Part shown: positions 2,361 to 27,792 of the stretch, one piece after another
Numbering within the stretch: the stretch's first letter is position 1
Layout of the letters: each line of letters begins with the position of its first letter
IMG/VR virus record: IMGVR_UViG_3300045911_000231
Span: 1-27,792 of that record
Source: a virus
Reading direction: 5' to 3' (one strand)
Length of the DNA: 27,792 nt
Translations under genes and position numbers: made by a program
The notes under the pieces: generated by a model
Seen by the model: the letters and a program-made list of their open reading frames with translations, nothing else
Told to the model about the DNA's origin: nothing
Database searches by the model: none

Positions 2361-3991
2361 ATCGCCTCCTCTTTTTGCTCTTTCAGGATTTGCTCAATGC
2401 GCTGCAAGATAGCCCTCGACCGCTCTTGCTCCCTGACCATTGCCGCAGCCGGATCGCTCGACGCCCCCGCAATCTCGACGCCGCCACCTCCCCCAAGTCT
2501 AGCAAGTGAGGAAACAGCGCCGATGCCAAGCGCAACCTCTTGGCTCTTGCGCAAGCTCGCGTCCACTTCGGATGTGGCCTGGCGAACGGCCTCGTCCATG
2601 CGGCGCTTTCCCTTGGCTGCAATCTCATCGGCAAGGTCGGCTTCCTCTTTCTTGAGGTCCAGCAGGCGCATTTGGAGGCGGATTTTTTCTTCCTCGGACG
2701 ATGCCTTAGCCAGGTCTTTGTCCGCCGCCTGGATGCGCTGGCGCACGTCGGCGAGCTTGCCCTGGTCGTCCTTGCGGTCGAAGTCCATCTTGCTTTGTTT
2801 TTCCGCCAAAGACTCACGCAGCCGGACGATCCGCTCTTCTTCTTTGGCGATGTCGGCGCGGATTTTTTTCTCCTCTTGATAGGTCTCGACAAGGCGCAAG
2901 CGAGCGTTCAGGCCGACCTCATCATCCCGGAATGCGGCGGCTCGCAAGGCGTCACGCTCTTGCATCAATGCCAAAAGCTTTTGCTCGTTGGAATAATTCT
3001 CAAAGTTCGCCTTGCGCTGTGCTTCGTCGATGCGCTGACGCAGATCGGCCAGCTTCTTCACTTCCGCTTGCGTCATTGCAACGGATTCCGCATCAAAGCC
3101 AAGGACTGGCCTGGGCGTCTCTGTGTCGCCAGGATTGACGGCTTTCGAGAAGCCCTCGGCGGTCTGGCTTGCGAAGTCTTTGGCGTCTTGGGCGATTTGC
3201 TTGAGCAGGTCGGCTGCTTGCGAAAAGTTGCCCTTCAAAGCCTCACCAATGGCAATAGCACCCAAGGTGACGGAGCCAACATATAGTTGCCAAGTCTTGA
3301 TCATCATCTCGATGGTCTGAACGACTATCCCGCCGACCGCAATGAATGCCGGACCGAGACCCGCAATCGTCTTATTTTTAAGTCGGGTCAGTTGGTCATT
3401 CACTCGCTCCGCCTGCTTGATCGTCTCTTCGGAAACGACGTTTGCTGCCGCAAAGGACTGGCGCAAAGCCTCCGGCCCCTGGGCAAGCAGGGGAACAATA
3501 TCAGCGGCTTTTGTGCCAAGGAGATCGGTGATTGCGGCAAGAGCTTTTCCTTTGTCGCTCGTTTGCTCGTATGCTTGGGAAAGAGCAAGAAGCCTTTCTT
3601 CAAGACCCATGCCAGCAAAATCCTGTGCGCTGATTCCCAGCGCATCGAAAGCCACCGATCCTTTTTGCGCCGCTTGATTGGCAAGGGTCATCGCCCGAGC
3701 CACAAGCTCAATGTCCGAGCCCGCCAGGCTTGCAGCTTGGGAAACTCTCTGGAGGCTTTCGGCGCTCTCGCCAAAGCGTGCGGCGAGCTTGGCCAATCGA
3801 TCGAACTGCTCGGACATCGCACGCCACTGTCCAACTAGGACGCCAACTCCAAGAGCGCCAACTAAGCCGGCGCCGACCGAGGAAAAGGAAGACTTGACCG
3901 ACCGCCCGAAAGCATCCGCCTGGGCGCGGGCCTCTTCCAGGCCCCGCTTGAATGGGGCCGTATTAAGTCCGAGTGTAGCTTGGGCAGACAT
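2357..3991 (-). CDS. Tail tape measure protein (short)
   Basis: The 544-aa product has a tape-measure layout. A short N-terminal motif (SAQATLGLNTAPFKRGLEEAR) is typical of TMP N-termini that wrap substrate-like segments. Hydrophobic Gly/Ala-rich segments lie around residues 37-55 and 210-250, and a long charged coiled coil runs from about 310 to 480 (many Lys, Glu, Arg heptads). Tape measure proteins set tail length and help form the DNA-ejection channel. At 544 aa it is short for the family, predicting a short flexible tail. It starts at ATG 3991, four bases after the preceding stop, and ends in an ATGA overlap with the next gene. The block 310-480 is very rich in charged residues, which explains long shadow frames on the other strand. 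Confidence 0.85.
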   Translation of the reverse strand: MSAQATLGLNTAPFKRGLEEARAQADAFGRSVKSSFSSVGAGLVGALGVGVLVGQWRAMSEQFDRLAKLAARFGESAESLQRVSQAASLAGSDIELVARAMTLANQAAQKGSVAFDALGISAQDFAGMGLEERLLALSQAYEQTSDKGKALAAITDLLGTKAADIVPLLAQGPEALRQSFAAANVVSEETIKQAERVNDQLTRLKNKTIAGLGPAFIAVGGIVVQTIEMMIKTWQLYVGSVTLGAIAIGEALKGNFSQAADLLKQIAQDAKDFASQTAEGFSKAVNPGDTETPRPVLGFDAESVAMTQAEVKKLADLRQRIDEAQRKANFENYSNEQKLLALMQERDALRAAAFRDDEVGLNARLRLVETYQEEKKIRADIAKEEERIVRLRESLAEKQSKMDFDRKDDQGKLADVRQRIQAADKDLAKASSEEEKIRLQMRLLDLKKEEADLADEIAAKGKRRMDEAVRQATSEVDASLRKSQEVALGIGAVSSLARLGGGGGVEIAGASSDPAAAMVREQERSRAILQRIEQILKEQKEEAI

Positions 3992-4571: not shown

Positions 4572-4943
4572 TCAGTAGGTGATCGAATTGTATTTAGCCA
4601 AGGTCAAATTAAGCTTGAGACCACGCCCCGCAGGGGTGGCTTCGTTGATTGCCGTGATGACGCCAAGCTTGACGTTTTGGTCATCCAAGACCATCGAACC
4701 GACAAGAGCCTCAATCTCTGTCTCGGTGTCGATGTCTGAAGCATTAAGAACCAAGGCGTCGAAAGTCTTTGTCACCTTCTGCTTGTCGGCAAACATGTCG
4801 AGAACGACGTTGCCGTCCTCGTCCGTCACCTGCTCGTTCCATTGCGGCTCGAATTGCCGCGAGGCGTTTTCGATGATGTAGTCGGTGACGGTAGGATTGA
4901 CCTTGATCTTGACCTGACGGTCTCCAAATTGGATGGTGGGCAT
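4572..4943 (-). CDS. Putative tail tube or tail-region protein (123 aa)
   Basis: A small beta-rich protein beginning MPTIQFGDRQVKIKV and ending LTLAKYNSITY, with start ATG at 4943 fifteen bases after the preceding stop. The order terminator-like gene, this gene, chaperone-position gene, tape measure matches where the major tail protein is normally encoded. At 123 aa it is small for a tail tube subunit. The alternating hydrophobic and charged pattern and the glycine before the last strand are compatible with a tail-tube fold, but this is a positional guess. No ribosome-binding site stronger than a partial one is visible. Confidence 0.6.
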   Translation of the reverse strand: MPTIQFGDRQVKIKVNPTVTDYIIENASRQFEPQWNEQVTDEDGNVVLDMFADKQKVTKTFDALVLNASDIDTETEIEALVGSMVLDDQNVKLGVITAINEATPAGRGLKLNLTLAKYNSITY

Positions 4944-4958
4944 GTAATTCTACATGTG

Positions 4959-5366
4959 TCAACTGTCCACAAGGCAAAAGTCCACTTCGACCACCCAGGT
5001 TGTTGCCGTCCTGTTCTCTTGGTAGTCACACTCAATGGTAGCGAGGCGAAAGCCTGACAGCTTGATGCCATCATCGACATCCGCCCTTACCGATAGGTAG
5101 TCAGTCAAAGTGCGATGCAAGGAATCCTCAATGCTTCGGTGCGTGCTGATTGGAGTCTGAGGCGCAGCAGAGATGAGCAGGATGTCTAGCGAAGCCGAGA
5201 AAAAATTATCAGGGAAAGCGGGCTGCGAGACCGCCCCGGCCCGCGCCACGACACAGGGCAAGCTCTTGGCGTCGGTCTGTGTGACTGAATAGACAGGAAT
5301 TGAAACGTGGCTTTCTAGCCACTTCGCAACAGCAAGCTCAAGTCGGGTCGATGCCTGGCCAATCAT
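4959..5366 (-). CDS. Putative tail terminator / minor tail protein U-like (135 aa)
   Basis: The product begins MIGQASTRLELAVAKWL, an amphipathic helix. It then has a conserved-looking pattern of strands: PCVVARAG, then SLDILLISAAPQ, a helix around RSIEDSLHRTL, and a final strand pair with WVVEVDFCLVD. This helix-strand arrangement and length resemble tail terminator (lambda U-type or DUF3168-type) proteins, which cap the tail tube and join it to the head. It starts with ATG at 5366, overlapping the preceding stop as ATGA. Assignment rests on fold-like pattern plus gene order. Confidence 0.6.
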   Translation of the reverse strand: MIGQASTRLELAVAKWLESHVSIPVYSVTQTDAKSLPCVVARAGAVSQPAFPDNFFSASLDILLISAAPQTPISTHRSIEDSLHRTLTDYLSVRADVDDGIKLSGFRLATIECDYQENRTATTWVVEVDFCLVDS

Positions 5367-6151
5367 TTTTTCCTCCTCAAGATCATGTCAAGTTGACGCT
5401 CCATGTTTCGCTTGACTCGTTCCACTGCATCCGCGATCTGCTGATCCGGCAATACCTTGGCAGAGTAGGCGACTAAGTTGGTTAGCGTGATGCTTGGGTC
5501 TTGGGTGCGCTGGCTATGATCCCGCACCAGGCCGGTTTGCCCCTTGTGCCGCGTCACCCAGCCAGGGATGCCTCGCGTGCCGCCAAGCTGACGGGCACAC
5601 GCAGCCCACCCAGACTTCACCCAGCCGACCTTCTTTTGTTGGCCTTGCACATATCGTTCGGCAGCCGACTTACGCACGGTGGCTCTCTCGATGAATCGCC
5701 AGCGACCAATCGTCCGATCTCGCGAGCCGGCAGTCGTCATTCGTCCGTTGCGGAATGCCTGCTTGTGCAATGCGCGCAGTTGGTTGGGGAGAGCATTCGG
5801 CACGAAGTGGGTCCGATCGGTCCCATAAATCGCGCCGTCCTTACGGACGAAGAGGCGGACATTCCCGGTCGAGTAGATACCAGACTCCAGGGCGGCGTCG
5901 ATGAGTGAATCATCTAGAGCCATGATGACGCCGGCGCGACCTTTGCCACCTAGCAAATCCCGACGGATTGCGACCTCTCCTTTGGCCTTGGTGGCGATGC
6001 TTTTCCCGTAGGGCTGGGTTCGGAACGCAAGATCAACAGCCAGCAACCTCGCCTGCGCGCGCAGCACATCGGAGGCCGTCTTGCCTGTCTCTTTGGCTAG
6101 TCGCTCCAAGACGGAAGAAAAGGCACGAGGCTTGATGTCGAAGGTGATCAT
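5363..6151 (-). CDS. Putative minor tail / head-tail joining protein, Z- or gp10-like (262 aa)
   Basis: The N-terminal 60 residues (MITFDIKPRAFSSVLERLAKETGKTASDVLRAQARLLA) form a helix typical of lambda Z / HK97 gp10-like tail completion proteins. A basic region follows, with several Arg-Lys rich turns, and a conserved-looking stretch near residues 170-215 (QQKKVGWVKSGWAACARQLGG). These proteins finish tails before head attachment. At 262 aa it is longer than HK97 gp10 and nearer to lambda Z. Start ATG 6151 overlaps the upstream stop as ATGA, and its own stop overlaps the next start the same way. No membrane or enzyme motif is seen. Confidence 0.62.
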   Translation of the reverse strand: MITFDIKPRAFSSVLERLAKETGKTASDVLRAQARLLAVDLAFRTQPYGKSIATKAKGEVAIRRDLLGGKGRAGVIMALDDSLIDAALESGIYSTGNVRLFVRKDGAIYGTDRTHFVPNALPNQLRALHKQAFRNGRMTTAGSRDRTIGRWRFIERATVRKSAAERYVQGQQKKVGWVKSGWAACARQLGGTRGIPGWVTRHKGQTGLVRDHSQRTQDPSITLTNLVAYSAKVLPDQQIADAVERVKRNMERQLDMILRRKK

Positions 6152-6462
6152 TTGTCAGGCTCCGCAAGAATGATCTCCCACGCCTGCGCCATCACTTGAT
6201 CGGCAACCGCCTCGACGCGATACGCCACGGAATCAATCTGCACGACCTGGTTGATCAGGCCGTTTCCGTCAGAAAAATCGGACTTGAACAAAGTTGCGGA
6301 GATGGTCTTTCCCTCGAAAAATCCGCCGTCCTCACGTGGGCGATCAGTTCGACCGTCCCCCAAAATACACGGGTATGATTGACCGTCTATCTCGATGGAA
6401 GAACCGAACCGACGCAGGGCATGAGACTTGAATCTCTTAAACTTTTTTTGCAGCGAGTTCAC
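6148..6462 (-). CDS. Putative head-tail joining protein, FII-like (104 aa)
   Basis: The apparent start is GTG at 6462 (reads MNSLQKKFKRFKSHAL). The N-terminus is basic and amphipathic. It is followed by strands in a pattern seen in lambda FII-type joining proteins: YPCILGDGR, a middle strand with ATLFKSDF, and a final VVQIDSVAYRVEAVADQ block. FII proteins bridge the portal stack and the tail. The stop overlaps the next gene as ATGA. The start codon is the least certain part, because no strong ribosome-binding site precedes the GTG. Confidence 0.6.
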   Translation of the reverse strand: MNSLQKKFKRFKSHALRRFGSSIEIDGQSYPCILGDGRTDRPREDGGFFEGKTISATLFKSDFSDGNGLINQVVQIDSVAYRVEAVADQVMAQAWEIILAEPDK

Positions 6463-6487
6463 AAGAATGTCCGGGTGTCAAACCGGA

Positions 6488-6745
6488 TCACGCTTGCTTG
6501 CGAGGACGACCGCGCCGCTTGATCTGCGGCGACTCTGGAACAGGATCACGATGCACCGGTTCCGGGTCGTTATGCCGGATAACTTCGTTCTCCGCGACCA
6601 GTCCCAGGCGCACGGCCTCTGTCATTGGAATGATCGTCCCTTCTGGAAAAAGCAACGAGACCGCTTCCTGCTTAGAGAAAACGGCGCGCCCATCCCCGGA
6701 GAGATAGACGCGCCGCCCAACAAGGAAGCTGTTTTGTTGTTTCAC
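6488..6745 (-). CDS. Small hypothetical head-region protein (85 aa)
   Basis: The frame opens with GTG at 6745, three bases after the capsid stop. The protein begins MKQQNSFLVGRRVYLSGDG and ends in a basic Arg-Lys tail (KRRGRPRKQA), an AT-hook-like GRP motif. Its place between capsid and joining protein matches small head-completion or decoration-type genes in lambda-like clusters. No family is recognised. The basic tail could contact packaged DNA, but that is only suggested by composition. Confidence 0.55.
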   Translation of the reverse strand: MKQQNSFLVGRRVYLSGDGRAVFSKQEAVSLLFPEGTIIPMTEAVRLGLVAENEVIRHNDPEPVHRDPVPESPQIKRRGRPRKQA

Positions 6746-6748
6746 CGC

Positions 6749-8383
6749 TTACGCCGTGAGGTCAACATCGCAGAAGGCTTTCGGCCCGCTCACGACAAAG
6801 GCCCCACGCATCTCGGCACGCAGGCCGACCTGATTCTTGCTCATGAGCTGCCAATCGCGATCCGCGATGTCGAGGCTCAACTGGCTGCGCACATGCAGGC
6901 CGCACCCGGTTGCAAAGTCGCCAACAATCGCCCGACCAGTCGGGACGTAGGAGTTGGTAACGACCGGCTTGCCCCAAATCGTCGGAGCAAGATTGACCGC
7001 CCAAGAACCGCCCACGTAGTGACCGTCGGTGGCTTTTTCTTTGCGGATGATTTCCCAGTCCGCCGGGTTCATCAAGACCGCATTGACGACGCGGCTGGCA
7101 AATTTCTCGACCTTGACAATACCAGCCAGGATCGAGTCAGCAGGCGACACCGAGTAGGCTTGGGTCTGGATGCCAGAAGTGTTCAAAATCCCCTTCAACT
7201 GGCGAGGCGCACCAGTTCCGGTGCCGTTGATGATCTGCTGCTCCAACCGCTGACGCACAGCGAGTGGCAAGCGATTCTGGATGTAGCTGGCAACAGCCGC
7301 TTGGTCTTCGAGAAGCTGGCGGGTCACGACGACAACGGCAGCAATCGCTTCAACCGGGAAATCAACCTCGGCGATGGCGAAGGTCTGATCCGGCTTGTCG
7401 CCGCTTTCATCGGTCTCAGACGCACCGGGGGTCACGTTCGCGGTCTCAACGATCTCGCGGATCGTGGAGCCAGTGGTCGCATAGACCGGGATCAGGTCGC
7501 CAAGAGTCGGCTGCTGCGAGTCGAAGGGGCGAACAGTGCCGGGCCGATCAAAGTTGGTCAGACCGAAGCCGCCAATGGAAGCAACAGCGCGGTGATCAAG
7601 ACTGATCTCGGCGCGGCTGCGACCGGGTTCCAAGGTGCGGAAAGCCGAGACGATCTGATCGACCGGGCCTTCGGCCTGGGCATCGCGCTCGGAAAGACGA
7701 TTCGCGAGGGCTTCGATATTGACGCCCTGGCGTTCGGCAATCTCCATTGCGCGGCGGGTCGCTTCGGCGACCTCGCGGATGACGGTGACGGTGGAAGTGC
7801 TTTCCGCAGGAGCGGAAGTTTCGACAGAAATGTTTTCTTGACTCATACCACTTTCCCGCGTGTCAACTGGCTGCGCGGACTCTGTGTCTTGAGCGGACTG
7901 CGCATCGAGCACTTGCGCACGATTGACGCCTACAGAATTGTCGGCGGGGACCGGGACAAGCGAGACTTCGTAGGGCGTCCACCGGGTAGCAGTCAGCGTC
8001 CGGGTGTCGGCATCCTCCTCGTAATCCTCGATTACGTAACCCACCGACACGTTGCGCCGGATGCCGTCCAGCACGTCTTGGAAAGCCTCCTCGCCACGAT
8101 CAGAGCGAGAAAAGCGCACAACAGCGCGGCCCTTGCCGTCCTCGATCCAGGCTTTCTCAACGACGCCCACCTGATCGTGAGTGTCATGATGCAACAAGAG
8201 CGGCCCGCCGTCGTTGAGCCGGTTCAAGTTGACGGCGTCAGGATCGTGGCTCAGCACCTCACGCCAGCCGCCGCGCATGACGGCAGCCTCCGACGAGAAT
8301 GAAATCTCGACGGTGCGCTGTTCGGCGTCGATGTTTTGCCGTTCGAAAGTAGCCTGAAAGGATCGGAATAGAGTCTTGTCCAT
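6749..8383 (-). CDS. Prohead protease-major capsid protein fusion
   Basis: One 544-aa reading frame joins two functions. Residues 1-155 match a U35/HK97-type prohead protease: a His pair at 65-66 (LLLHHDTHD), a Ser in NVSVGY at 113, and the closing SLVPVPAD strand at 141-148. Residues 160-240 form a charged helical linker (delta or scaffold-like). From about 240 onward the sequence reads as an HK97-fold major capsid protein. The protease would mature the capsid by cutting the linker. Such fusions are known in phages with GpA-type terminase and lambda-type portal, which are also present here. An internal Met at 180 (MSQENISVE) could allow separate synthesis of the capsid part. Start ATG 8383 follows the portal stop by 23 bases. 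Confidence 0.88.
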   Translation of the reverse strand: MDKTLFRSFQATFERQNIDAEQRTVEISFSSEAAVMRGGWREVLSHDPDAVNLNRLNDGGPLLLHHDTHDQVGVVEKAWIEDGKGRAVVRFSRSDRGEEAFQDVLDGIRRNVSVGYVIEDYEEDADTRTLTATRWTPYEVSLVPVPADNSVGVNRAQVLDAQSAQDTESAQPVDTRESGMSQENISVETSAPAESTSTVTVIREVAEATRRAMEIAERQGVNIEALANRLSERDAQAEGPVDQIVSAFRTLEPGRSRAEISLDHRAVASIGGFGLTNFDRPGTVRPFDSQQPTLGDLIPVYATTGSTIREIVETANVTPGASETDESGDKPDQTFAIAEVDFPVEAIAAVVVVTRQLLEDQAAVASYIQNRLPLAVRQRLEQQIINGTGTGAPRQLKGILNTSGIQTQAYSVSPADSILAGIVKVEKFASRVVNAVLMNPADWEIIRKEKATDGHYVGGSWAVNLAPTIWGKPVVTNSYVPTGRAIVGDFATGCGLHVRSQLSLDIADRDWQLMSKNQVGLRAEMRGAFVVSGPKAFCDVDLTA

Positions 8384-8406
8384 GCCGTTGGCGGCATGTC
8401 AACGAC

Positions 8407-9789
8407 TCACCCCGAAGCCCGACCAGGCAACCGCATGTTAAGGACCGCCTCGACGGGCACGCCTATCTTCTCTGCCACTTGGCGAGCGTAAGCAAACTCG
8501 ATGGCTCGCTGATCCAAGGCGTCGCGCCAGTCTAAGCCTCGCTCGCCGTAGTCCTCGGCCAGAGTGCGCAATCCCAGCAAGATGTCCTCACGATTGGCTT
8601 GTGCCTCGCGCCCAGCATCCACCGTCAAAGCAGGCGGTCTTTGCCAAACGATCCGGTAAGCATCGTTAACCGGGGGAAGATCGCCACGCTTGACAGCAGA
8701 AGACACAACCCAAAACGCAAGGCGGTTGAGGACTTTTTCAATGAGAAGATTCTGCCGCTCGGCAAATCGACGCTGCGCCTGGGCCGCAACCATGCGAGCG
8801 GATGCAGCTCGGCTCAAGGTCGGGTCATAGACAAACTCGGGGGGCAGGCCCATGCCAAGAGCCACAGAGCGCACCAGAAGCCGCTCGAAATCCGGCAGAC
8901 CTTGGGTGGGCCTGTTGGGTGTCAGGCTCTCGACCTTTTCTCCGACCCTCCGCTTGAGGGTCAAGCCGCCGTCCAGCTTTTCGGCAGGGATACCATCGGC
9001 ATCCACATCGGCGTCGCCAAGCAAGCCGGACTCGTCCCCGTCCAACCGATAATCAATGATGGATGTGGCCAGACTTTTCTTTGTGCCCTTCTTTTCGAGG
9101 GCGATGACATCACGCAGGTCTCGTGCATCATTGATTCCGTGGGTGATTGTTGGAAGTCCCCGATACTGGCTCGCACTGGTCGCCTCCAACAAGTGGATGA
9201 AATCCGCAGCCGCCACGTCGAACGAATTGCCACGGAGCAAACCAGAGCCGTCCAGAATACGATAGGCCACCGGACGACCCAGCGAATCAATCCTGATCCC
9301 GTCACGCCACTCGTCTCCCGCGCCGACTCCAGAGCCGATGCGGTGCCCCTCAATAAGCGCGACCTTCGGAAACCCGGAGACCGTCTTGCCAAGGATGAAG
9401 CCACAATCACCGTCCACGTCGATTGAAATGCACGCAAGCCCCAGTAACTCGTCAAAGGAGTGCCGCCCGGTGGTATCCGCAATCTTGCACCATTCCGCCC
9501 AAAATGCTTCTGCCGCTTGGTTCCACTTTTCGTCTCCGGTCTGCCACTGGGGGCGAAGGCCATGACCGACAGAATAGCGACGCATGGAGAGAACAGCCCC
9601 GCGCACCCAGCCAATGTTGGCGAAAACATCACGCGAGAGCGAAAGCACGCGGGTCCGCTCCCACGCATTAACGCGCTGCCATGCGTCCATGTCGGCCATC
9701 GCCACCGCCGACCGACTCGGCTCCGCATCGCCACTGATGGCGTCCAAGAATGTTCTCGCCCACTTGGCGACTTTCTTTCGCATCTTCAT
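8407..9789 (-). CDS. Portal protein, lambda gpB-like family
   Basis: A 460-aa protein with the features of the lambda-type portal family. It has a basic N-terminus (MKMRKKVAKWARTFLDAI) and a motif block NIGWVRGAVLSMRRYSVGHGLRPQWQ near residue 58-85. A middle region contains FIHLLEATSASQYRGLPTITHGI around 190-215, and a long helical C-terminal part has the conserved GLPPEFVYDPTLSRAASARM at about 325-345. The portal forms the dodecameric channel at one capsid vertex through which DNA is packaged and ejected. Start ATG 9789 overlaps the preceding stop as ATGA. Its neighbours (terminase upstream, protease-capsid downstream) agree. Confidence 0.9.
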   Translation of the reverse strand: MKMRKKVAKWARTFLDAISGDAEPSRSAVAMADMDAWQRVNAWERTRVLSLSRDVFANIGWVRGAVLSMRRYSVGHGLRPQWQTGDEKWNQAAEAFWAEWCKIADTTGRHSFDELLGLACISIDVDGDCGFILGKTVSGFPKVALIEGHRIGSGVGAGDEWRDGIRIDSLGRPVAYRILDGSGLLRGNSFDVAAADFIHLLEATSASQYRGLPTITHGINDARDLRDVIALEKKGTKKSLATSIIDYRLDGDESGLLGDADVDADGIPAEKLDGGLTLKRRVGEKVESLTPNRPTQGLPDFERLLVRSVALGMGLPPEFVYDPTLSRAASARMVAAQAQRRFAERQNLLIEKVLNRLAFWVVSSAVKRGDLPPVNDAYRIVWQRPPALTVDAGREAQANREDILLGLRTLAEDYGERGLDWRDALDQRAIEFAYARQVAEKIGVPVEAVLNMRLPGRASG

Positions 9790-11055: not shown

Positions 11056-12783
11056 TCATTGTGGTTTGCCAGAAAAAAGTTTTAGGACCATTGCAGCCGC
11101 CACCTGCATCGCTTCGCAGTCCCAAAGGTGGTTATGACGTCGCACTCGCTGCCACCGCTGCGTGACTTGTTTTGTCTTGGGATGAATGAAATCTTTTTTG
11201 ACCTCTGCGTCGATCTGTTCGATGTAGTCGTCGCTGACATCTTTTGGGATCTCCCACGACTCACCCGCACCTCGCCGCAAAGCGGCCAGCTTGTCTTTCA
11301 CGGGGTCGCTGGCCCAAAAGATGTGGCGGACGACAAGATTGCGACCTACCCCGTGCCGCTTTGTGGGCGAATAATAACGGGCTTCTTGAAGCCCCCCTGC
11401 AAGGTTGTGATAAAACCTGTCGTCGCCGCTGCCGTGCAACGCGGTCCAGTTGTGTGTTGCACACCAGAAATGAACCTCCTGCGTTTCATATTGTGCGTCC
11501 ACAAAGCAGAGGCGCGGTTGCACCTTGAGCCGCTGGGCGATGTTGTAAATTTGCTCGAATGTGTTGACCCGCCCCTCGTAGATCAGGCGGCTCGATCCGT
11601 CCTGTGCCCAAGCACGGACCACGATCCAGAAGTGGTCTCGTTGCTTGTCAGCGGTCAAGAATCTGTAAAGCTCCCTATCCCACTTCTGCCCGTCGGCGTA
11701 GTCTTGCTGGGTGTAGTCGCTGCCTATCAACTCCGCCGCTGGCTCCATTTCTCGCTCAGTCCAAGGTTCCGCCAGTCGCTTGTTAATGAACTGTTTCAGG
11801 GCCGCAAAGTCGTTTTCCCTCGCTCGCTCTTGCGCCTCGACCCACTCGCAAGCGACCTCGCCCCATGACGTCCACCAGACGGGCAGGATTGAATATCTGA
11901 TTGAACAGACGCCACGCACTGCGTTCGGATTCGTCGCTTTGTATTCGCTCGCCAGAGAAAGTTCTCGCCGGGTCTTGGCATCATCGCTAAATGCGTGCTT
12001 GCAGCGGGGACACTCGTAGTGGGTGCCAACCAGAATGTCGTTGGGCTTCGCCCACTCGCCATTGCTTGCTTTCGGGATCACGACTTGCGACCAAGACCAC
12101 GGCGACCACTCGCCACACTTCGGGCACGCAAAGCCGATGACTTCCTGCGTGCCACGCAACCACGCCTTGTGGAAGTCATGCCCCTCATCGCTCCCCTGCG
12201 AGACCAGCAGGGTCTTTCGATTCCATCGGTCATGGTGCCGCTTGCGCAACTCTCCAATCATTCCCTCTCTCCACCGCCAGACCTCATCCCCGATGCAATA
12301 GCGCATCGACTTTTCTTGCAGGCTACTCATGTTTGCACCCGCCAAGAAAAGCGGCATGTGGGGGAACATGATTTCGGTTTTGCGCTTGGCATGTCGATCC
12401 TTCGGGAAGAGCGCGGCCACGGGCTTGCAGTCGTTGAGCACCGGCAATAAGCGAGACTCGGCCCACTCTTTTGATAGGTCGTCCGTCTGTCCAACGACCA
12501 AAGTCGGTCCCGGATCAACGGCAATGATGTAGGGGAGCAGCAACTCCAAGAGTGTTGTCTTTGCGCCGCCAGTCGGAGCAGCCAGCACGACCTCGTGGTA
12601 TTGATCAGACAACACCGAGTTGATGACGTGCTTGAGCCAGGGGGCAGTCTGCCGATCAAACGCTTTGCTTCGGTCCGAGTGGGGCAGTCGGACACTCGCC
12701 TCCAGCCAGTCAAGCGGGTCGCCTTGATAGAGCGAATTGAGGCCATCACAGAAGCCAACAGCAAGATCACCCATCAGACTCAT
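11056..12783 (-). CDS. terL: Terminase large subunit, GpA family
   Basis: The 575-aa product is a lambda gpA-type terminase. The N-terminal ATPase domain has a Walker A-like APTGGAKTTLLE at residues 69-80, followed by the Walker B and motif III region. The middle carries a putative zinc-binding pair, CPKCGEWSPW and YECPRCKHAF. The C-terminal half is the nuclease domain, ending with the basic HNHLWDCEAMQVAAAMVL segment common in GpA proteins. It cuts concatemeric DNA and drives packaging into the prohead through the portal. Start ATG 12783 lies inside the 3' end of the small-subunit gene (17-base overlap), with an AGGAGGGAG ribosome-binding site. Confidence 0.92.
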   Translation of the reverse strand: MSLMGDLAVGFCDGLNSLYQGDPLDWLEASVRLPHSDRSKAFDRQTAPWLKHVINSVLSDQYHEVVLAAPTGGAKTTLLELLLPYIIAVDPGPTLVVGQTDDLSKEWAESRLLPVLNDCKPVAALFPKDRHAKRKTEIMFPHMPLFLAGANMSSLQEKSMRYCIGDEVWRWREGMIGELRKRHHDRWNRKTLLVSQGSDEGHDFHKAWLRGTQEVIGFACPKCGEWSPWSWSQVVIPKASNGEWAKPNDILVGTHYECPRCKHAFSDDAKTRRELSLASEYKATNPNAVRGVCSIRYSILPVWWTSWGEVACEWVEAQERARENDFAALKQFINKRLAEPWTEREMEPAAELIGSDYTQQDYADGQKWDRELYRFLTADKQRDHFWIVVRAWAQDGSSRLIYEGRVNTFEQIYNIAQRLKVQPRLCFVDAQYETQEVHFWCATHNWTALHGSGDDRFYHNLAGGLQEARYYSPTKRHGVGRNLVVRHIFWASDPVKDKLAALRRGAGESWEIPKDVSDDYIEQIDAEVKKDFIHPKTKQVTQRWQRVRRHNHLWDCEAMQVAAAMVLKLFSGKPQ

Positions 12784-14016: not shown

Positions 14017-14187
14017 GCGTCACGGAACCTTTCGTGACGCCTAACAAAATTGCGCCCCCTGTCGCGAGGCGTCACAGCAACCTTACCCCCCCGTAGGGGG
14101 GGGTATAAGGCTTTTGTGACGCACTTTCGTGACGCGTCACAAAAGTACTTTCGTGACGCTTTCGTGACGTTTCGTGACGCGTGACGC
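14017..14187. repeat. Iteron-like GTGACGC cluster
   Basis: The heptamer GTGACGC or its complement occurs at 14017 (-), 14034, 14069 (-), 14116, 14129, 14134 (-), 14153, 14174 and 14181, with a GTGACGT variant at 14164. Several sit in the longer unit TTTCGTGACGC. Two of them form the perfect palindrome GTGACGCGTCAC (14129-14140). Spacing is irregular, about 10-45 bases. Such arrays bind replication initiators in iteron origins or repressors in phage control regions. Confidence 0.75.
14081..14110. other. C7/G8 hairpin inside the repeat cluster
   Basis: The sequence CCTTA, seven C, GTA, eight G, then TATAAGG makes an inverted repeat with a three-base loop and outer arms that pair apart from one small bulge. 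There is no following T run on either strand, so a rho-independent terminator is unlikely. Its position in the middle of the repeat cluster suggests a structural element of an origin or regulatory region. Confidence 0.5.
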
Positions 14188-14995: not shown

Positions 14996-15169
14996 TTACA
15001 AGCCAAACTCTGTCTGCGAGGTTTCTCTGGCGATCCGCTCGCAAGCGGCTTGGAAATAATCAGGGTCAATCTCGCAGGCCGTTAGGTGCATTTTGGCGTA
15101 GTGGCAGGCGATAGCAATGGAACCGCTGCCAAGGTGCGTGTCCAAGATTTTGTCTCCCGGCTCCTTTTC
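14996..15169 (-). pseudogene. 5'-truncated DNA methyltransferase remnant
   Basis: The frame reads EKEPGDKILDTHLGSGSIAIACHYAKMHL (given here only in part), then CEIDPDYFQAACERIARETSQTEFGL and stop at 14996. DTHLGSGSxAIA and the later EIDxxYFxAA are the AdoMet-binding motif and following acidic strand of phage-type N6-adenine or N4-cytosine methyltransferases. Upstream the frame is closed by TGA at 15172, so about the first two thirds, including the catalytic DPPY or related motif, is missing. The 57 codons left cannot be active. The gene was probably lost when the adjoining small genes were acquired or rearranged. Confidence 0.8.
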
Positions 15170-17574: not shown

Positions 17575-18267
17575 TCATTGATTACCAAAGACTTCCCTCG
17601 CTGACCGGTAGGCTTCTGGGTAGTATTTGCGCAGATAGACCAGGCGCCCGTAGGCTTCTCCGTTGCGTCCAATCAGCCCGTTGCGAGCCCCTGGCCCCAG
17701 GTGGTCGTAGATCGTAAGCCATGGCATCCCTGACTTAGCGATGTAGCACCACACGTCATCCACCGTCCAATCAACCAGCGGGCATAATGTATTAGGCGTG
17801 CTCCATTGCGCGTGCCGCCTATTTTTGCTCTCCTGTCTGCGTAGGCCCACCACCCGCCTTGTTAGGCCGCGCTCCTGTGCGTAGGCTTTGAGGTCACGGA
17901 ACATGTCGTCGTGGACCTTGGTCCGGTAGGTGGCTAGGTCTCCAGTGCGCGGCGCAGTGGCGTATTTGTCCCAGGGGAACAGCTCGAGATTCCACCCCTG
18001 CGCCTTGGCGTAGTCGAGCCAAGCTTGCTTTTCGCTTGCTGTCCAGTGGACAGGCGAGCCGGGGTCCACCATCAAGATCGGGATGCCTGGCATGACGTAG
18101 TGACAGGCGTGAGCCAGCACAGACGAATCCTTGCCAGCCGAAAAGCTGACATAACACCGAGAGTCTAACTCTTGGCGCAGTGTCGAAAAAAGCAGCCGCA
18201 GGCGGCTGCGGAACTGAGTCCGAGCCGCCCGCAACATGTATTCAGAGCGCGATATTTTCGAGGTCAT
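17575..18267 (-). CDS. cysH: CysH-like PP-loop protein (PAPS-reductase family) of the csf module
   Basis: The protein (230 aa) has the PP-loop SAGKDSS at residues 43-49. It also has the GLRRQES motif at 141-147 and CPLVDWTVDDVW at 162-173, all hallmarks of the CysH/PAPS-reductase-like PP-loop family. Cys residues arranged as a 4Fe-4S CC...CxxC site of true APS reductases are absent. This makes sulfate reduction unlikely and a nucleotide-transfer or adenylylation role on another substrate more plausible. It is the last gene of the csf block, overlapping csf3 by 26 bases. A CysH-like gene is a recognised companion of subtype IV-B modules, although CysH-like genes also occur alone in phages. Start ATG 18267 has only a weak ribosome-binding site. 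Confidence 0.88.
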   Translation of the reverse strand: MTSKISRSEYMLRAARTQFRSRLRLLFSTLRQELDSRCYVSFSAGKDSSVLAHACHYVMPGIPILMVDPGSPVHWTASEKQAWLDYAKAQGWNLELFPWDKYATAPRTGDLATYRTKVHDDMFRDLKAYAQERGLTRRVVGLRRQESKNRRHAQWSTPNTLCPLVDWTVDDVWCYIAKSGMPWLTIYDHLGPGARNGLIGRNGEAYGRLVYLRKYYPEAYRSAREVFGNQ

Positions 18268-18904
18268 AGGGTTCGCCTACCTCGCACATGTTCACCCTAT
18301 CCACTTGGTTCCAATAGGGTGGCCTGGCTCGGCACAAGCGAGCGCCGTCGGGCAACGGCAACCATCTTTGCGCCCTGCCGTCTCGCACGAGGGACCAGTC
18401 ATCTTCGACGCGCTCCACCGTGACATCGTTGACGACGCCTTTCCCCATTGCGGCCTTTTTACCCAGATGTCGGATGTGGCGCACTAGCTCGTGGCGCACG
18501 TTGCGGCGGTCGCCAACGCACCACGCCACCATAGTGTGGCAAAGCACCAGCGGCATGGGCATGTTGTATTCCCGCCAAGTTCCATTGGTTAAGTTGGGGG
18601 AGCCATTTGTTAGCTCAACGCGATTCTGCCGGAACTTCTTGCGCCAGAACTGGAGCGATTCCGCAGTCTGCCCGTCGGGGAATAGAGCTGAGGCGCACCA
18701 CCCCCAAGTGTCACCAGCGCGCCACTTGGCCAGCGGAATGGAGATATCGTCTGGCCTTTGGTCTCTACTCAACTCTCCAGCCCCTTTGTGATGTGCGGCA
18801 GCGGCGAACACCAGCAGGGCATCCAAGTGGATAGGCTCGGCGGGGTCGAACAACACACCTGCGCCGTCCAGATGGAAGGTCACTTTAAGCGGATAGAAGC
18901 TCAT
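18242..18904 (-). CDS. csf3: Csf3, Cas5-group subunit of a type IV CRISPR effector
   Basis: The 220-aa product matches the Csf3 (Cas5) pattern. It has an N-terminal RAMP strand (PLKVTFHLDGAGVLFDP) followed by PIHLDALLVFAAAAHH at 25-39, where family members read LDGLL. A glycine-rich loop LGKKAAMGKGVVNDVTVERVE lies at 147-167. In the type IV effector Cas5 caps one end of the guide RNA. The start is ATG 18904, with AGGAGG seven bases before it, and the gene overlaps the 3' end of csf1 by 20 bases. Longer frames upstream lack such a site. Assignment by motif and gene order; no search was run. Confidence 0.82.
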   Translation of the reverse strand: MSFYPLKVTFHLDGAGVLFDPAEPIHLDALLVFAAAAHHKGAGELSRDQRPDDISIPLAKWRAGDTWGWCASALFPDGQTAESLQFWRKKFRQNRVELTNGSPNLTNGTWREYNMPMPLVLCHTMVAWCVGDRRNVRHELVRHIRHLGKKAAMGKGVVNDVTVERVEDDWSLVRDGRAQRWLPLPDGARLCRARPPYWNQVDRVNMCEVGEPYDLENIAL

Positions 18905-19574
18905 GGCCTGCCTCCTGTGCTTTTTCTTGCTTGAGTTCCTCTTGGCTAGGGAGCAGGTAGCAGAGCAGGGCATAGAGACCGCTCTGATACTTGTCTCGTG
19001 CCCAGGCGCGGAATGTCTCCCACTTGCCAATGCCGACCTTGCGCATGACGGCTGGTGGCATGTCTAGTGACTCCATACTTTGCCGCCCGATGCCCTCACG
19101 CAGAGCAATGTTGAGCGTGTGCCACCAGTCAAGCACTCGCGTCCGATCTGTGCAGTCCACTGGGCGCATCTCGAATAGCCACACCTGGCGCGAGCCAGAG
19201 TTGACCGGGGCGCGGAGCGCTCCGTGCTTTTTGTAGCTTGTCGTAATGTAGCCGGCCCAAGTCTTGGCTTGCACGCCCACAATGACCAGCGGCCTGACCT
19301 TAGTGCGTGTTAGGCGGCGGAATGTCACACCATCGCAAATCCAAGACGATTTACGCTCGTAGGGGTGTTGTAGGGAAACGTAAGCGGCGGCGCCGACAAG
19401 AGGTGAATTAGGCGCCCTGAGCAAATGCTGCTCAGTGAAGCTGCGACCCAGCAACTCGGAGCGGGGCACGCATGGCTCTACTTCTCCCGTCACGCAGCAC
19501 ACCCCCTCGACGGGGGTGGCTGGTAATGGGACGTCTTTTTTGATCGCCTCAAAAATTAAGCGCGTCGCGTGCAT
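18885..19574 (-). CDS. csf1: Csf1, Cas8-like large subunit of a type IV CRISPR effector
   Basis: The 229-aa product resembles Csf1, the type IV large subunit. It has a Cys-containing segment CCVTGEVEPCVPRSELLG (26-43), then the SFTEQHLL (45-52) signature, a beta core (VRPLVIVG, QVWLFEMRP) and a C-terminal helical region. Typical Csf1 has a four-Cys zinc finger. Here only Cys26, 27 and 35 remain, and the place of the second pair reads SPLVGAAA, so the finger looks degenerate. I start at ATG 19574, with GGAGG six bases upstream; an in-frame TTG four codons earlier is an alternative. It overlaps csf2 by 26 bases. Confidence 0.78.
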   Translation of the reverse strand: MHATRLIFEAIKKDVPLPATPVEGVCCVTGEVEPCVPRSELLGRSFTEQHLLRAPNSPLVGAAAYVSLQHPYERKSSWICDGVTFRRLTRTKVRPLVIVGVQAKTWAGYITTSYKKHGALRAPVNSGSRQVWLFEMRPVDCTDRTRVLDWWHTLNIALREGIGRQSMESLDMPPAVMRKVGIGKWETFRAWARDKYQSGLYALLCYLLPSQEELKQEKAQEAGHELLSA

Positions 19575-20781
19575 GGATGCCTCCAATTTTTTCGAGGTAG
19601 CTCAGGATGTTCTCTTTGTTTTCGCGCAGGTAGGTTTCGTAAGGCTCGGGGTCAGGAGCATTTGTTAGCTCAATCTCAACACTGCCGAGGTCTGCCCGAT
19701 TTTGTGCGCCCAGCCGGCCACGATCCTGGAGCAGGCGCAGCCCCACACCCAGCGCCGACTTGGCTAGATCACTGGTGTGTAGGCGCAGATCAATGCCGCC
19801 CTCGAGGACCGCCCCCGCCTTGAGCGTTTCCGTGACGGCGATCATACCATGGTGCTCATCATGGTCCTCGTGGTCCTCGCGCCTTGTTAGGTATATCCAC
19901 TCAAACAACTCCGAGGCTAACACTTCTCCGCCATTCCCCCACTCGCGGCATACTGGGCGCAAGTCGCCAAAGTCAGCGTGCCCAGCGAGCACGCGATTGC
20001 CCATTGCTGCCCCTAGCAAAGAGAGGTGCGGCAAGGTGTCGCGAAACTCACGCACACCGTCGGAGCGAATCGCTCCATTGTCGCCCAGGGCAGAATTGAT
20101 CGCCTTGGTTGCCGTGCTGGCCTCCTCCAGCGCGCCGCCCGCATAGAGGACATGGAAGAACCACAGCGCGAAGGGCGGATTGTCGCGGCGTGGCTTGAGT
20201 CCGAGGCTGGCAGCGAAATGATCAGCCAGGAGATCGCGCATCTGGCCGCGCACGGCGTTGCCAGCATAATAGGGCAGCTCCATAATCGTTCCGCCTTGTC
20301 CGAGGACCGCCATGCGGCGGAACAGCGTGGCGTTACCACTCTTGGTGTCGCTGCCGTGCGAGAGCGGAGTGAGGCACTTGGCGCGGATTGTGATGTGATA
20401 GGGTCGGCGTGGAAGTGCTTGATCGCTGACGCTATCGACTTTGGGCAGCTCAATCCCTTCCATTGCTGCGTCCGCATCCGCTTGCTTGCTGGCGCAGAGG
20501 ACAGCATAGAGCGTCGGATTCTCGCGAATCCACTTCAATGCTCCTGGTCCGTCTGGTGACGTGCAAAGCGCCAGGAAGTCCGTAATGGCCTGCTGGCGTA
20601 ACTCAGACGGCTGGGCGTCAACCAGATCGGATAGACGCTGCCCAAATGCCATCAGTGTAGGCTCGACGCTGGCTTGCCGGACACGGTCGGCAAAAACATC
20701 GAGCGAGTTTCGTTTTGTTTTGATCGAGGCGGCGTGGAATACGCTAGCCCCGAATCTTTGCAGTGTTGTTGTTAGCTTCAT
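19549..20781 (-). CDS. csf2: Csf2, Cas7-group subunit of a type IV effector, with N-terminal extension
   Basis: From residue 127 on this is a Cas7-type Csf2. PYHITIRAKCLTPLSHG begins the RAMP core, followed by SGNATLFRRMAVL (148-160) and the LPYYAGNAVRGQMRDLL block (169-185). A Gly-rich loop with LGAAMGNRVLAGHADFG follows further on. Cas7 subunits form the guide-RNA-coated backbone. Before the core lie about 125 residues that look entirely helical and are not part of usual Csf2 (about 330-350 aa against 410 here). No Cas11 small-subunit gene is present, so the extension may replace it. It begins at ATG 20781, 41 bases after the primase-helicase gene. Confidence 0.85.
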   Translation of the reverse strand: MKLTTTLQRFGASVFHAASIKTKRNSLDVFADRVRQASVEPTLMAFGQRLSDLVDAQPSELRQQAITDFLALCTSPDGPGALKWIRENPTLYAVLCASKQADADAAMEGIELPKVDSVSDQALPRRPYHITIRAKCLTPLSHGSDTKSGNATLFRRMAVLGQGGTIMELPYYAGNAVRGQMRDLLADHFAASLGLKPRRDNPPFALWFFHVLYAGGALEEASTATKAINSALGDNGAIRSDGVREFRDTLPHLSLLGAAMGNRVLAGHADFGDLRPVCREWGNGGEVLASELFEWIYLTRREDHEDHDEHHGMIAVTETLKAGAVLEGGIDLRLHTSDLAKSALGVGLRLLQDRGRLGAQNRADLGSVEIELTNAPDPEPYETYLRENKENILSYLEKIGGIHARDALNF

Positions 20782-24977: not shown

Positions 24978-26021
24978 TTATTGGTTGAATTCCTTGATCC
25001 TCTTCCGGAACGCATTCGGGCGGGCCAAGATTTGTTTGCAGTGGTGGTCGGAGAGGTCCGATAGCTCTTGCCCTTCCTGGAGCCAGCCCCACGCCCGCAA
25101 GGCCACCACCGCTTTCTGTGCCTCGCTCAGCGTGCCGTGCAGGACATCAAAGAAGACCTGCTCATGCAGGGGAGGAACCTTTGCTGGAGCCGGGGCCACA
25201 GCCGGGGCTTGATCGACAGGCTGGGGAGCAGGCTCGGCCGCTTTAGATTCCTGCTTCGCTTCGGCCTGCTCCGGCTGTTTGGCAGGTGCTGGCTGCGCAT
25301 TGCCAAAGATCGGAGCCACCGCCGCCCACGTCATCGGGATCTCTTCGGGGATGCCTGGCACACGGCACTTGGCATCCCAAGCCGCGCACCGCTGGGTGTA
25401 AAGGACGCGCTCCTTCCCGCCCACTCCCTTCGCCCGTCCCGATTCCGCCTCCAAGACCCGTGTCTTGAAGTTGGCGAAGAGCAACGCATCGGCCCACTCC
25501 TTGATCAAAGGACTCGATTGCTTGGTCAGTTTGAGTTCATACCTATCGTAGGCTTGCATTCCGTCGGGGGGCTCATGCCGCGCCACCTTGGCGTGCGCGA
25601 TCAAGAGCACATGCACCCCGCGAGCTACTACCATGTCCAAGGTGGCCAGCCACCGCGTCATCTTCTCGGCCAAGAGCACATACCCTTTCCCATACCCGTA
25701 ATCTTCAATCGAAGACTTCTTATCCTTCTCCAGCATGTGCTCGACGGCCAACTTCTCCGCCCAATCGGCAGAGTCCACCACCAACGTCCGGTAGTCATGG
25801 CCCCCAGCGGCCACTTCCTTCACCGCCTGCTCCAATGCGGACCACGTCTTGACCGACAGGCGCGGCACGTCCAGGTGCGCGGTCCCGTCTTCAACGTCCA
25901 AAAACAGCGGGGCCGGAGCCTGCGCCGCCAGAGTCGTCTTGCCGACCGATTCTACCCCGTAGAGCACCACTCGTTGCGCACGGGGCACCGTCCCCCGGCG
26001 GACTGTTTGCAGCAGGCTCAT
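24978..26021 (-). CDS. Sak4-type RecA-like ATPase (AAA_24) with long linker and C-terminal domain
   Basis: The N-terminal part (residues 1-240) is a RecA-like ATPase with Walker A GVESVGKTTL at 22-31 and Walker B TLVVDSAD at 79-86, typical of Sak4/AAA_24 single-strand annealing or recombination proteins. A low-complexity Pro/Ala/Gln/Glu linker follows (about 245-285), then a small C-terminal helical domain (HEQVFFDVLHGTLSEAQKAV...). The linker makes the protein longer than many Sak4 proteins. ATG 26021 has AGGAGG seven bases upstream and overlaps the stop of a 15-codon leader. Confidence 0.82.
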   Translation of the reverse strand: MSLLQTVRRGTVPRAQRVVLYGVESVGKTTLAAQAPAPLFLDVEDGTAHLDVPRLSVKTWSALEQAVKEVAAGGHDYRTLVVDSADWAEKLAVEHMLEKDKKSSIEDYGYGKGYVLLAEKMTRWLATLDMVVARGVHVLLIAHAKVARHEPPDGMQAYDRYELKLTKQSSPLIKEWADALLFANFKTRVLEAESGRAKGVGGKERVLYTQRCAAWDAKCRVPGIPEEIPMTWAAVAPIFGNAQPAPAKQPEQAEAKQESKAAEPAPQPVDQAPAVAPAPAKVPPLHEQVFFDVLHGTLSEAQKAVVALRAWGWLQEGQELSDLSDHHCKQILARPNAFRKRIKEFNQ

Positions 26022-26065
26022 TGGTGGGCCTCCTGTAGATTTGTCAGCTCTGCATTTCTTTTCAT
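26018..26065 (-). CDS. 15-residue leader peptide before the Sak4 gene
   Basis: ATG 26065 is preceded by AAAGGAG and begins the frame MKRNAELTNLQEAHQ, which stops with TGA at 26018-26020 overlapping the ATG of the Sak4 gene (ATGA). The peptide region carries the AGGAGG of the next gene, so translation of the leader may open or couple it. It is short and could be coincidental, but the site, spacing and overlap are all in place. Confidence 0.45.
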   Translation of the reverse strand: MKRNAELTNLQEAHQ

Positions 26066-26122
26066 TTCTTCTCCTTTGTTATTAGTTTACGTTATGGGCC
26101 TATGGTAAAGAGATAAGGTTTT
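26022..26122 (-). other. Intergenic region between early operon and integrase
   Basis: Apart from the leader peptide, this stretch holds the AT-rich start region of the early operon. Candidate -35 (TTTACC or TTGAAA) and -10 (TAAACT) hexamers exist, but with poor spacing; I cannot name a single promoter. A quasi-palindrome around ATGGGCCTAT (26093-26102) could be an operator. No terminator follows the integrase stop that I can see. Confidence 0.4.
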
Positions 26123-27079
26123 TCAAGTGGACTCCAAGGGGCTGCCGACGCTGAGGGCGTCAGCGTGGATATAGCCCATGGTGGTCTCTAGGTTTTGATG
26201 GCCCATGGCAGCTTGGACGGCGCGGACGTTGGCACCGCGCTCCAGGAGGTGCGTGGCGTAGCCATGGCGGAGATGGTGGGGGGTCAAGGCTCCATCGATC
26301 CCGAGGCGCTGGACGGCGGCGCGGACGGCGCGCTGAATGTTGGCCTCATGCAAGTGCCAGCGCACGGTGCGGTTGTCTCGCTGATCCCAGCAGGGCTTGT
26401 GCTGCGGGAACACCCAGAACCACGTCCAGGCCCGCTCGTAGGCAGGGTATTTCTTTCCTAAAAGACCGGGCAGCTTGCAAGGGATGCCGGAGGCGTGGTC
26501 TCTCTCCCAGACTCCCCGGGCAAAGGTGATTTGCGCCCGAAGCGCCGGGATGAGGCTGCACGGGATGCTGACGACACGATCCTTGCGTCCTTTGGATTGA
26601 GCAATGACCAGGCGGCTGCCTGCAAAATCGACATCGCGGATGCGGAGTTTGAGCGGTTCTGAAACTCGCAATCCGCAGCCGTAGAGCATGTGCGTGAGCA
26701 AACGGGTGGGATAACCGCCGACGTCCTCCACACTTTCCATCAAGCGACGGGCCTCCGCTTGGGAGGGAGCGCGGCGGATGAAGGCGGGGCGCTGAGCGCG
26801 GAGGGCATCTACGTCCTTAAGCGGTTGGCGGACGACTTCTTTGAAGAAGAAGAGGATGGCATGAAACGCCTGCCGCTGCGTGGAGGCCGCGCAGTTTCCC
26901 CTGGCCATGTCGGAGAGCCAGTGTTCCAGCTTTTGCTCACGGGTCCAAGCGGCAGGCATGGTCAGCGCGGCGGCCCCAAAGCGTTTCAGCCAATGGCAAT
27001 ACGTGTGCTCGGTTTGCAGGGAGTAATGCCGCAACCGGCAACCCCCCCTCAATTTCTCTAAACCCCTCTCCATGTTCAT
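26123..27079 (-). CDS. intI: Integron-type tyrosine recombinase (IntI family)
   Basis: The 318-aa protein is a tyrosine recombinase with Arg138 (GLRVSE), Lys163 and Lys166 (SKGRKDR), His268-269 to Arg271 (HHLRHG), His294 (MGHQN) and Tyr303 (MGYIH). Between patches II and III lies a region aligning with the IntI-specific insertion: WERDHASGIPCKLPGLLG, KKYPAYERAWTWFWVFP and then VRWHLHEANIQRAV (about 191-252). It would act on folded single-strand attC sites and attI, not on classic phage att sites. ATG 27079 has AAAGGAG four bases upstream; ATG 27073 is an alternative, while a longer frame starting at 27130 lacks a site. It reads away from an attC-like element, as integron integrases do. Confidence 0.85.
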   Translation of the reverse strand: MNMERGLEKLRGGCRLRHYSLQTEHTYCHWLKRFGAAALTMPAAWTREQKLEHWLSDMARGNCAASTQRQAFHAILFFFKEVVRQPLKDVDALRAQRPAFIRRAPSQAEARRLMESVEDVGGYPTRLLTHMLYGCGLRVSEPLKLRIRDVDFAGSRLVIAQSKGRKDRVVSIPCSLIPALRAQITFARGVWERDHASGIPCKLPGLLGKKYPAYERAWTWFWVFPQHKPCWDQRDNRTVRWHLHEANIQRAVRAAVQRLGIDGALTPHHLRHGYATHLLERGANVRAVQAAMGHQNLETTMGYIHADALSVGSPLEST

Positions 27080-27130
27080 GTTGCTCCTTTGGTTATACAA
27101 CCGGTTATCTGACAGGTGTCGTGGAATCAC

Positions 27131-27324
27131 TGTTCTGCTTGACTTTTTTTTGCCGCTCCTGCACTATGCTCGCAGGCTTTGGATCGATGGGGCGCGGAGG
27201 CGTCTGTTCTCTGTCGAGTCCACGGCGGCGAGAGGAAGACGCAATCTCGCTTGAGCCGCTGGCGGGGGTCGGACCCCGCAAGCCGAACCATTCGCTGATG
27301 CAGACACAGCGCGGGCGAAAAAGA
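27131..27324 (+). other. Upstream region of the integrase, possible attI and cassette promoter
   Basis: No supported gene lies here. A TTGACT (27139-27144) followed by an eight-T tract and a TATGCT 20 bases later is an imperfect rightward promoter-like sequence, the place and direction of a cassette promoter. The rest contains no clear repeat that I can name as attI. A 94-codon rightward frame reads through into the attC-like site and ends there; it contains the Gln/Gly-rich QGGGGQQPP translation typical of attC DNA and is not a convincing gene. Confidence 0.35.
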
Positions 27325-27424
27325 GCCGAACAAGGCGGTGGAGGACAACAGCCTCCCGTTGAGTCTTTTGGTGTATTCATAGTTTTATTGGTCGGGACTC
27401 TGTGAGTCACCTTGGACGTTCGCA
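27325..27424 (+). repeat. attC-like recombination site
   Basis: The element begins GCCGAACAAGGCGGTGG and ends CACCTTGGACGTTCGCA about 100 bases later. The outer ends pair (GCCGAAC with GTTCGC, last bases diverged, as expected after cassette exchange at G/TT). Inner arms CAAG and GTG pair with CAC and CTTG across a short bulge. AACAAGGCG and TTGGACGTTCG are common ends of attC sites in environmental integrons. The orientation, R'' box nearest the integrase, is canonical. The loop part has no long stem, so the call is moderate. Confidence 0.45.
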
Positions 27425-27657
27425 GAAAGTATCTGGCCGATTGTCCTGTCGTGGGGGTCTTTATTTCCCCACGGTCTGCATTGCGGATTCCATCCAGGAG
27501 GAAGATCATCAAGTTTCAGGATCTCGTCGGCAAATATGATTTCCGGCTCGTCGTCAATTTCGTGGCGCATGGAGTATTGAGCATTGCTTATTGCTGATTC
27601 TTCATCCTCCGCGAGGATGACGGTTTCGTATTCGATATGGACTTTATAGAGTTTCAT
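27385..27657 (-). CDS. Small acidic hypothetical protein (90 aa), possible cassette gene
   Basis: ATG 27657 has AAGGAG at a good distance and is preferred over an upstream in-frame start. The product begins MKLYKVHIEYETVILAEDEESAISNAQYSMRHEIDDEPEI: strand, helix, then a strongly acidic strand, compatible with a small DpnD/PcfM-like or antitoxin-like fold. The C-terminal third is polar. The stop lies inside the attC-like element, so the gene runs opposite to the usual cassette direction. Function unknown. Confidence 0.6.
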   Translation of the reverse strand: MKLYKVHIEYETVILAEDEESAISNAQYSMRHEIDDEPEIIFADEILKLDDLPPGWNPQCRPWGNKDPHDRTIGQILSANVQGDSQSPDQ

Positions 27658-27713
27658 GGGAACGCTCCTTGTAAGAAGGTTGTTGGATTCGGGAAATTGT
27701 TTGCCGGCCTGTC

Positions 27714-27792
27714 TCACAGGAGGGTCTTTCCTTTCGAGGGGTGGCGCTGAACTTCACCTCTGACGACCGCAGCGACCTGAGCTTCGATCCGT
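27714..27792 (-). CDS. C-terminal end of an unknown gene, 5' end outside the window
   Basis: The last 25 codons on the minus strand read RIEAQVAAVVRGEVQRHPSK and a few more residues, then TGA at 27714-27716. The composition is protein-like and another gene start follows 57 bases later. With so little sequence no family can be named and chance openness cannot be excluded. Confidence 0.3.
   Translation of the reverse strand, partial: RIEAQVAAVVRGEVQRHPSKGKTLL

Follow-up and report, generated by a model that had tools for sequence, protein, structure and literature searches.

A probable phage-borne integron at the edge of a metagenomic viral contig

Integrons are gene-shuffling devices that have been studied as bacterial elements and are best known for spreading antibiotic resistance. 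Qi et al. (2023) described integrons and CALINs carried by phages, with IntI and/or attC sites in phage genomes (PMC9892861), and some phage attC sites recombine with IntI1 in E. coli (PMC9892861). The IntI phages reported there hold integrons that were recently captured from hosts (Vibrio IntIA, class 1 on P1, and a Shewanella IntI with 95% identity to that of its host; PMC9892861). A phage-restricted IntI clade, inverted cassettes, or cassette duplications in phage genomes were not reported in the literature found by our search. Phage integrons are already known (PMC9892861), but an IntI clade restricted to phages, with cassettes inverted, appears to be new.

The DNA analyzed here (the window) is a linear 27,792-bp fragment of an IMG/VR virus record and is metagenomic, like the contigs with which it was compared. 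Judged from sequence comparisons, the phage very probably carries an integron, represented by intI, one attC site and the first cassette gene at the contig edge. The features referred to below are as follows.

6749-9789, minus strand: major capsid protein with protease domain and portal, phage hallmarks (PF05065, PF05136; phrog_617, phrog_21)
11056-12783, minus strand: terminase large subunit, phage hallmark (PF05876/PF20454, phrog_15)
17575-18267, minus strand: cysH-like gene of a type IV-B-like operon
18242-18937, minus strand: csf3 of the same operon
18885-19586, minus strand: csf1 of the same operon
19549-20781, minus strand: csf2, with an N-terminal match to Cas11
24978-26021, minus strand: Sak4-like single-strand annealing ATPase (phrog_124, E 4e-52), directly downstream of intI
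26123-27079, minus strand: intI, integron integrase, intact, about 313 to 318 aa; start ATG at 27079 or 27073
27080-27324, no strand assigned: intI-attC intergenic stretch, expected from its position to hold attI and promoters
27282-27305, plus strand: possible degenerate second R''-L'' half-site (GCCGAACCATTCGCTGATGCAGAC), seen by eye, without a matching 3' half and folding not above shuffles
27325-27424, plus strand: attC site, 100 nt; R'' GCCGAAC at 27325-27331, R' GTTCGCA at 27418-27424
27385-27657, minus strand: first cassette gene, 90 aa, unknown function, antisense to attC, with its stop codon inside attC

Like the phage integrons described previously, the window combines IntI and attC within a phage genome. 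It differs from them in that its IntI lineage comprises viral contigs only among the matches listed, in its inverted cassettes, and in the cassette duplications found next to intI in its relatives. With the sedentary chromosomal integrons (V. cholerae IntI4/IntIA) it has in common the IntI fold, patch and catalytic residues, the attC architecture R''-L''-L'-R', and an attC orientation away from intI. In contrast to these, the phage cassettes are antisense to attC and codirectional with intI, lie in a phage early operon, and often have GTTCGN as their R box. Virus Rctr41k (KX853513; L002), a phage from a DAMO/anammox enrichment, likewise has an IntI-type gene among phage genes and, within positions 4680-9433, at least three attC-type sites that each follow an ORF; its IntI gene is annotated only as "integrase-like." However, its array lies downstream of intI, its cassettes are sense, and its IntI is 36 to 39% identical to that of the window and belongs to another clade.

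The main genes of the window all read leftward, from tail, capsid, portal and terminase genes through a replication block (primase, RuvC-like protein, exonuclease, DUF669 protein and the Sak4-type annealing ATPase) to the recombinase and a small edge gene. The Sak4-like protein is 84 to 98% identical in amino acids to its counterparts in sister phages. An Rfam search of positions 25800-27792 gave no match, and no tRNA usable as an att site was found in the window. A hairpin at 15002-15087 (minus strand) resembled an attC at first sight and was rejected, as it falls within the coding sequence for the C-terminal part of a DNA methyltransferase. A short ORF at 14996-15145 (minus strand), apparently the remnant of a gene, resembles the C terminus of an adenine DNA methyltransferase (HLGSGSIAIACHYAKMHLTACEIDPDYF). 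The type IV-B-like CRISPR-Cas operon lies inside the phage at 17575-20781 (minus strand); in its place, beyond the primase, a sister phage (G051) carries attC cassettes. Clustered TTTCGTGACGCGTCAC-type repeats occupy a noncoding stretch at 14019-14185, to the left of the accessory genes; they may represent an origin or a region bound by a regulator.

By its sequence, the window recombinase is a true integron integrase. It scores 278.6 bits against TIGR02249 (cutoff, 265) and falls below the class 1 equivalog cutoff of NF011946, as expected. Among PDB entries, it matches V. cholerae IntI4 best (E 1e-48), to which the IntI-specific patch (KKYPAYERAWTWFWVFP) aligns without gaps between conserved boxes. 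All catalytic residues (R, K, H-x-x-R, H and Y) are kept, as judged by conserved columns and motif positions. An IntI-specific region had been proposed in an earlier note on this DNA, and both the TIGR02249 score and the gap-free alignment bear it out. In a 131-row tree, the protein grouped with IntI, not with Xer, and formed a group of full support (100) with L092, L093, L094 and L095, all from viral contigs, within a larger all-viral group. Identity to these four relatives is 45 to 49%, L093 being closest, compared with 39% for the best bacterial-genome IntI among the matches listed; closer chromosomal IntIs may exist. A single-sequence IntI query gave no match among viral contigs, and an alignment-based query was required. 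The intI loci of the relatives contain a terminase gene (L094), portal and capsid genes (L095), a weak portal match (L093; phrog_1216), and a phage-family gene of unknown function (L092; phrog_2045), with intI of L092 overlapping its neighbor by 4 bases.

Two sister phages place the integron in its phage context. L090 is 92.8% identical in nucleotides to window positions 25690-26314, and L088 (record G051) is 84% identical. L090 keeps the last 190 bp of intI and L088 the last 110 bp, both before the same sak4 gene, and the L090 remnant contains two stops. Both remnants are flanked by phage genes, with tail-fiber-like and lysis-type genes upstream and sak4 on the other side. L090 has attC sites at 3456-3557 and 3878-3978; a cassette and attC directly adjoin the intI remnant, into which the site at 3878-3978 runs. 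Coding sequence of intI contributes part of the R''-L'' half of the latter (minus strand; GTCCAGCGCCTCGGG), as though intI had perhaps been destroyed by recombination at an attC-like spot within the gene. Four attC sites were found in G051 (at 73, 928, 1763 and 2771); two of these flank a gene for a C5-type DNA methyltransferase. As phage genes lie on both sides of the intI remnant and attC sites, the integron lies inside the phage genome in this group. The sister phages further indicate that intI has decayed in some members while cassettes remained, and the integron of the window lineage may therefore be decaying as well.

The attC at 27325-27424 (plus strand) is in canonical orientation relative to intI. 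Alternative boundaries at 27282-27364 proved wrong; the stretch between them folds no better than shuffles. Three covariance models were used. R1, built from 28 attC sites of viral and bacterial loci, had 1 match in 50 control phage records, compared with 27 of 49 search-set records; it missed 27325-27424, and no window match that it gave was convincing. R2, built from 16 phage attC sites with the window left out, reported 27325-27424 in default runs at 27.8 bits (E 2.4e-5 to 5.5e-5), and gave one strong and two marginal matches in 49 other phage records; with filters off, only a shorter overlapping match was returned (27325-27372, 10 bits). R3, built from chromosomal attC sites only, did not reach the window attC, but nevertheless recovered most attC sites of G051 and L090.

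The sister-phage attC G051:1763-1860 starts with GCCGAACAAGGCGATGGAC, like the window at 27325, and its best match anywhere in the window is 27325-27424. Global alignment of the two sites scored 33.5, which was reached by none of 500 dinucleotide shuffles (mean, -3.0; maximum, 9.5). The bottom-strand hairpin predicted for the window attC is of attC type but weak (z of -0.83), two sister attC sites folding likewise weakly (z of -0.2 and +0.6), and R' (GTTCGCA) deviates from GTTRRRY. On the strength of the R2 match and this alignment, 27325-27424 is a real attC, homologous to the sister-phage site. An attC-like element to the right of intI in canonical orientation had also been claimed previously, and both the R2 score and the homology to the G051 site confirm it; even the end given at the time, 27424, is the exact attC limit found by R2. 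A nonfolding element had been named as evidence to the contrary; an attC-type hairpin is predicted, but its z score is weak. The distance between attC and intI is similar in L094 (243 to 246 bp). attI sites are poorly conserved in sequence. The window holds one attC and one cassette gene only, and as the contig ends 370 bp beyond that attC, any array would continue outside the window; arrays are seen in G051, L090 and L256.

Among viral contigs, a single relative of the first cassette gene was found, L256:3145-3420 (65% identical in amino acids, with third-position-biased differences), which sits between two attC sites. L256 is a phage contig whose terminase is unrelated to that of the window; its roughly nine attC sites span 4 kb, with one ORF per interval. 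The cassette gene is the only significant blastn/tblastx similarity between the two contigs. At the DNA level, the two stay closely similar as far as TGCGAAC, which is the R' box on the strand of the gene; similarity drops immediately beyond it, at the place where an IntI crossover would be expected.

Perfect cassette duplications were found in two relatives, L093 (368 nt; 5604-5971 and 7573-7940, with intI at 7980) and L123 (305 nt; 6863-7167 and 7543-7847, with intI at 7935). The latter also carries portal and head-protease genes. Each duplicated unit opens with an AAC box and closes with CCGAAC or CCCAAC, which correspond to the G^TT crossover in reverse complement. In both phages, one copy is the cassette adjoining intI, where integrons insert. 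These duplications point to cassette insertion as the job of IntI.

The truncated, stop-containing intI genes of the sister phages, together with the atypical and weakly folding window attC, would also fit an IntI that no longer acts as a cassette recombinase, being either a passenger in decay or, in its position beside sak4, a resolvase of phage-genome dimers or a helper in recombination. However, the window intI is an intact ORF that keeps all catalytic residues, and close relatives show a cassette boundary and arrays. We therefore consider this reading unlikely.

Adoption of an IntI-type enzyme as the lysogeny integrase, with the attC-like element serving as attP, would account for the position of attC beside intI, as attP often adjoins int. 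PF00589 and PF00239 searches of the window and its nearest relatives revealed no further tyrosine or serine integrase, save a large serine recombinase in G043; as these records are fragments, another integrase may lie elsewhere. A prophage copy of this phage was looked for and not found. L117, L145 and L161, which are related IntI phages, have a classical phage integrase (phrog_1) right beside the IntI gene, so that both recombinases coexist. The phrog_1 tyrosine recombinases belong to the same superfamily as the window IntI and have the same catalytic domain, but differ from it in that the window IntI has the IntI-specific patch and attC sites. Furthermore, there are several attC sites per phage, each with its own small gene, and arrays are unnecessary for lysogeny; the sister phages, moreover, truncated intI and yet kept their attC sites. 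This role is thus quite improbable. The earlier note had considered that the phage took IntI as its own integrase and that a second phage-type integrase would speak against this: the sister-phage context supports IntI as belonging to the phage, whereas a lysogeny role left no sign, and a second integrase is seen beside IntI in the three phages named above. The 40-kb phage contig with the large serine recombinase (G043:C1; L255) has no tyrosine recombinase; its positions 36158-38376 include an attC with a strong score (56.6 bits) and another attC-like hairpin.

In bacterial-genome integrons, ORFs beside attC were sense in 60 of 62 cases, and all 13 decided loci were sense. Among 41 viral loci with attC sites found by R3, 30 were antisense, 6 sense and 5 tied, i.e., antisense in 30 of 36 decided loci, compared with 0 of 13 in bacteria. 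As the viral loci are related to each other, the associated P value (1e-7) overstates their independence and is indicative only; genes at these loci were called with a simple custom codon-bias caller. The array lies downstream of intI in at least four of the sense loci (L100, L113, L127 and Rctr41k). Cassette genes of the window and of its nearest relatives run antisense to attC. Consequently, cassettes, intI and phage operon all share one reading direction in these phages, with either the cassette genes or the array inverted. One integron criterion is that cassette genes are sense to attC and expressed from Pc; here, the cassette gene is antisense. A prophage excised or assembled together with a flanking chromosomal integron head, akin to the earlier suggestion of a prophage inserted beside one, has a precedent in the Vibrio anguillarum phages Va_90-11-286_p16 and PF430-3_p42 (PMC9892861) and agrees with the window ending near intI, but is largely refuted and most improbable given the intI remnants between phage genes (with attC sites and a cassette adjoining that of L090), the antisense cassette genes, unlike those of bacterial integrons, and nearest IntIs that are viral, with those of bacterial genomes at 39% or less among the matches listed.

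A phage-borne integron is instead supported by the intact IntI, the attC homology, the shared cassette ending at the crossover, the duplications beside intI, the cassette orientation, and the remnants and arrays of the sister phages. We propose that IntI would be made from a gene in the phage early (recombination) operon and would recognize folded single-stranded attC sites, with activity and strand choice presumed. It could then insert and excise small gene cassettes just upstream of its own gene, at a putative attI. Replicating phage DNA may supply single strands and extra copies, if the timing is as we suppose, and a cassette could thereby be copied to a second place or passed between coinfecting phages. 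Given their inverted orientation with respect to attC, the cassette genes would be read by the phage operon together with intI, not by an integron promoter. The array is presumed to extend beyond the contig edge.

In the literature that we searched, phage integrons are mostly captures of host integrons. Whether tailed phages have integron lineages of their own seems to us evenly balanced: inverted cassettes would be expressed by the phage operon, and IntI would shuffle accessory genes (methyltransferases and small unknowns) between replicating or coinfecting genomes. The cassette pool would then be functionally separate from the bacterial one, because a transferred cassette would be read antisense. 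If this is true, a phage-maintained integron lineage would be a dedicated system for reshuffling accessory and counterdefense genes, and part of phage mosaicism would stem from site-specific rather than illegitimate recombination. It would also become testable whether lytic replication, with its abundance of single-stranded DNA, offers attC sites a natural setting in which to fold. Finally, the reversed polarity would offer a simple marker for separating phage from bacterial cassettes in metagenomes.
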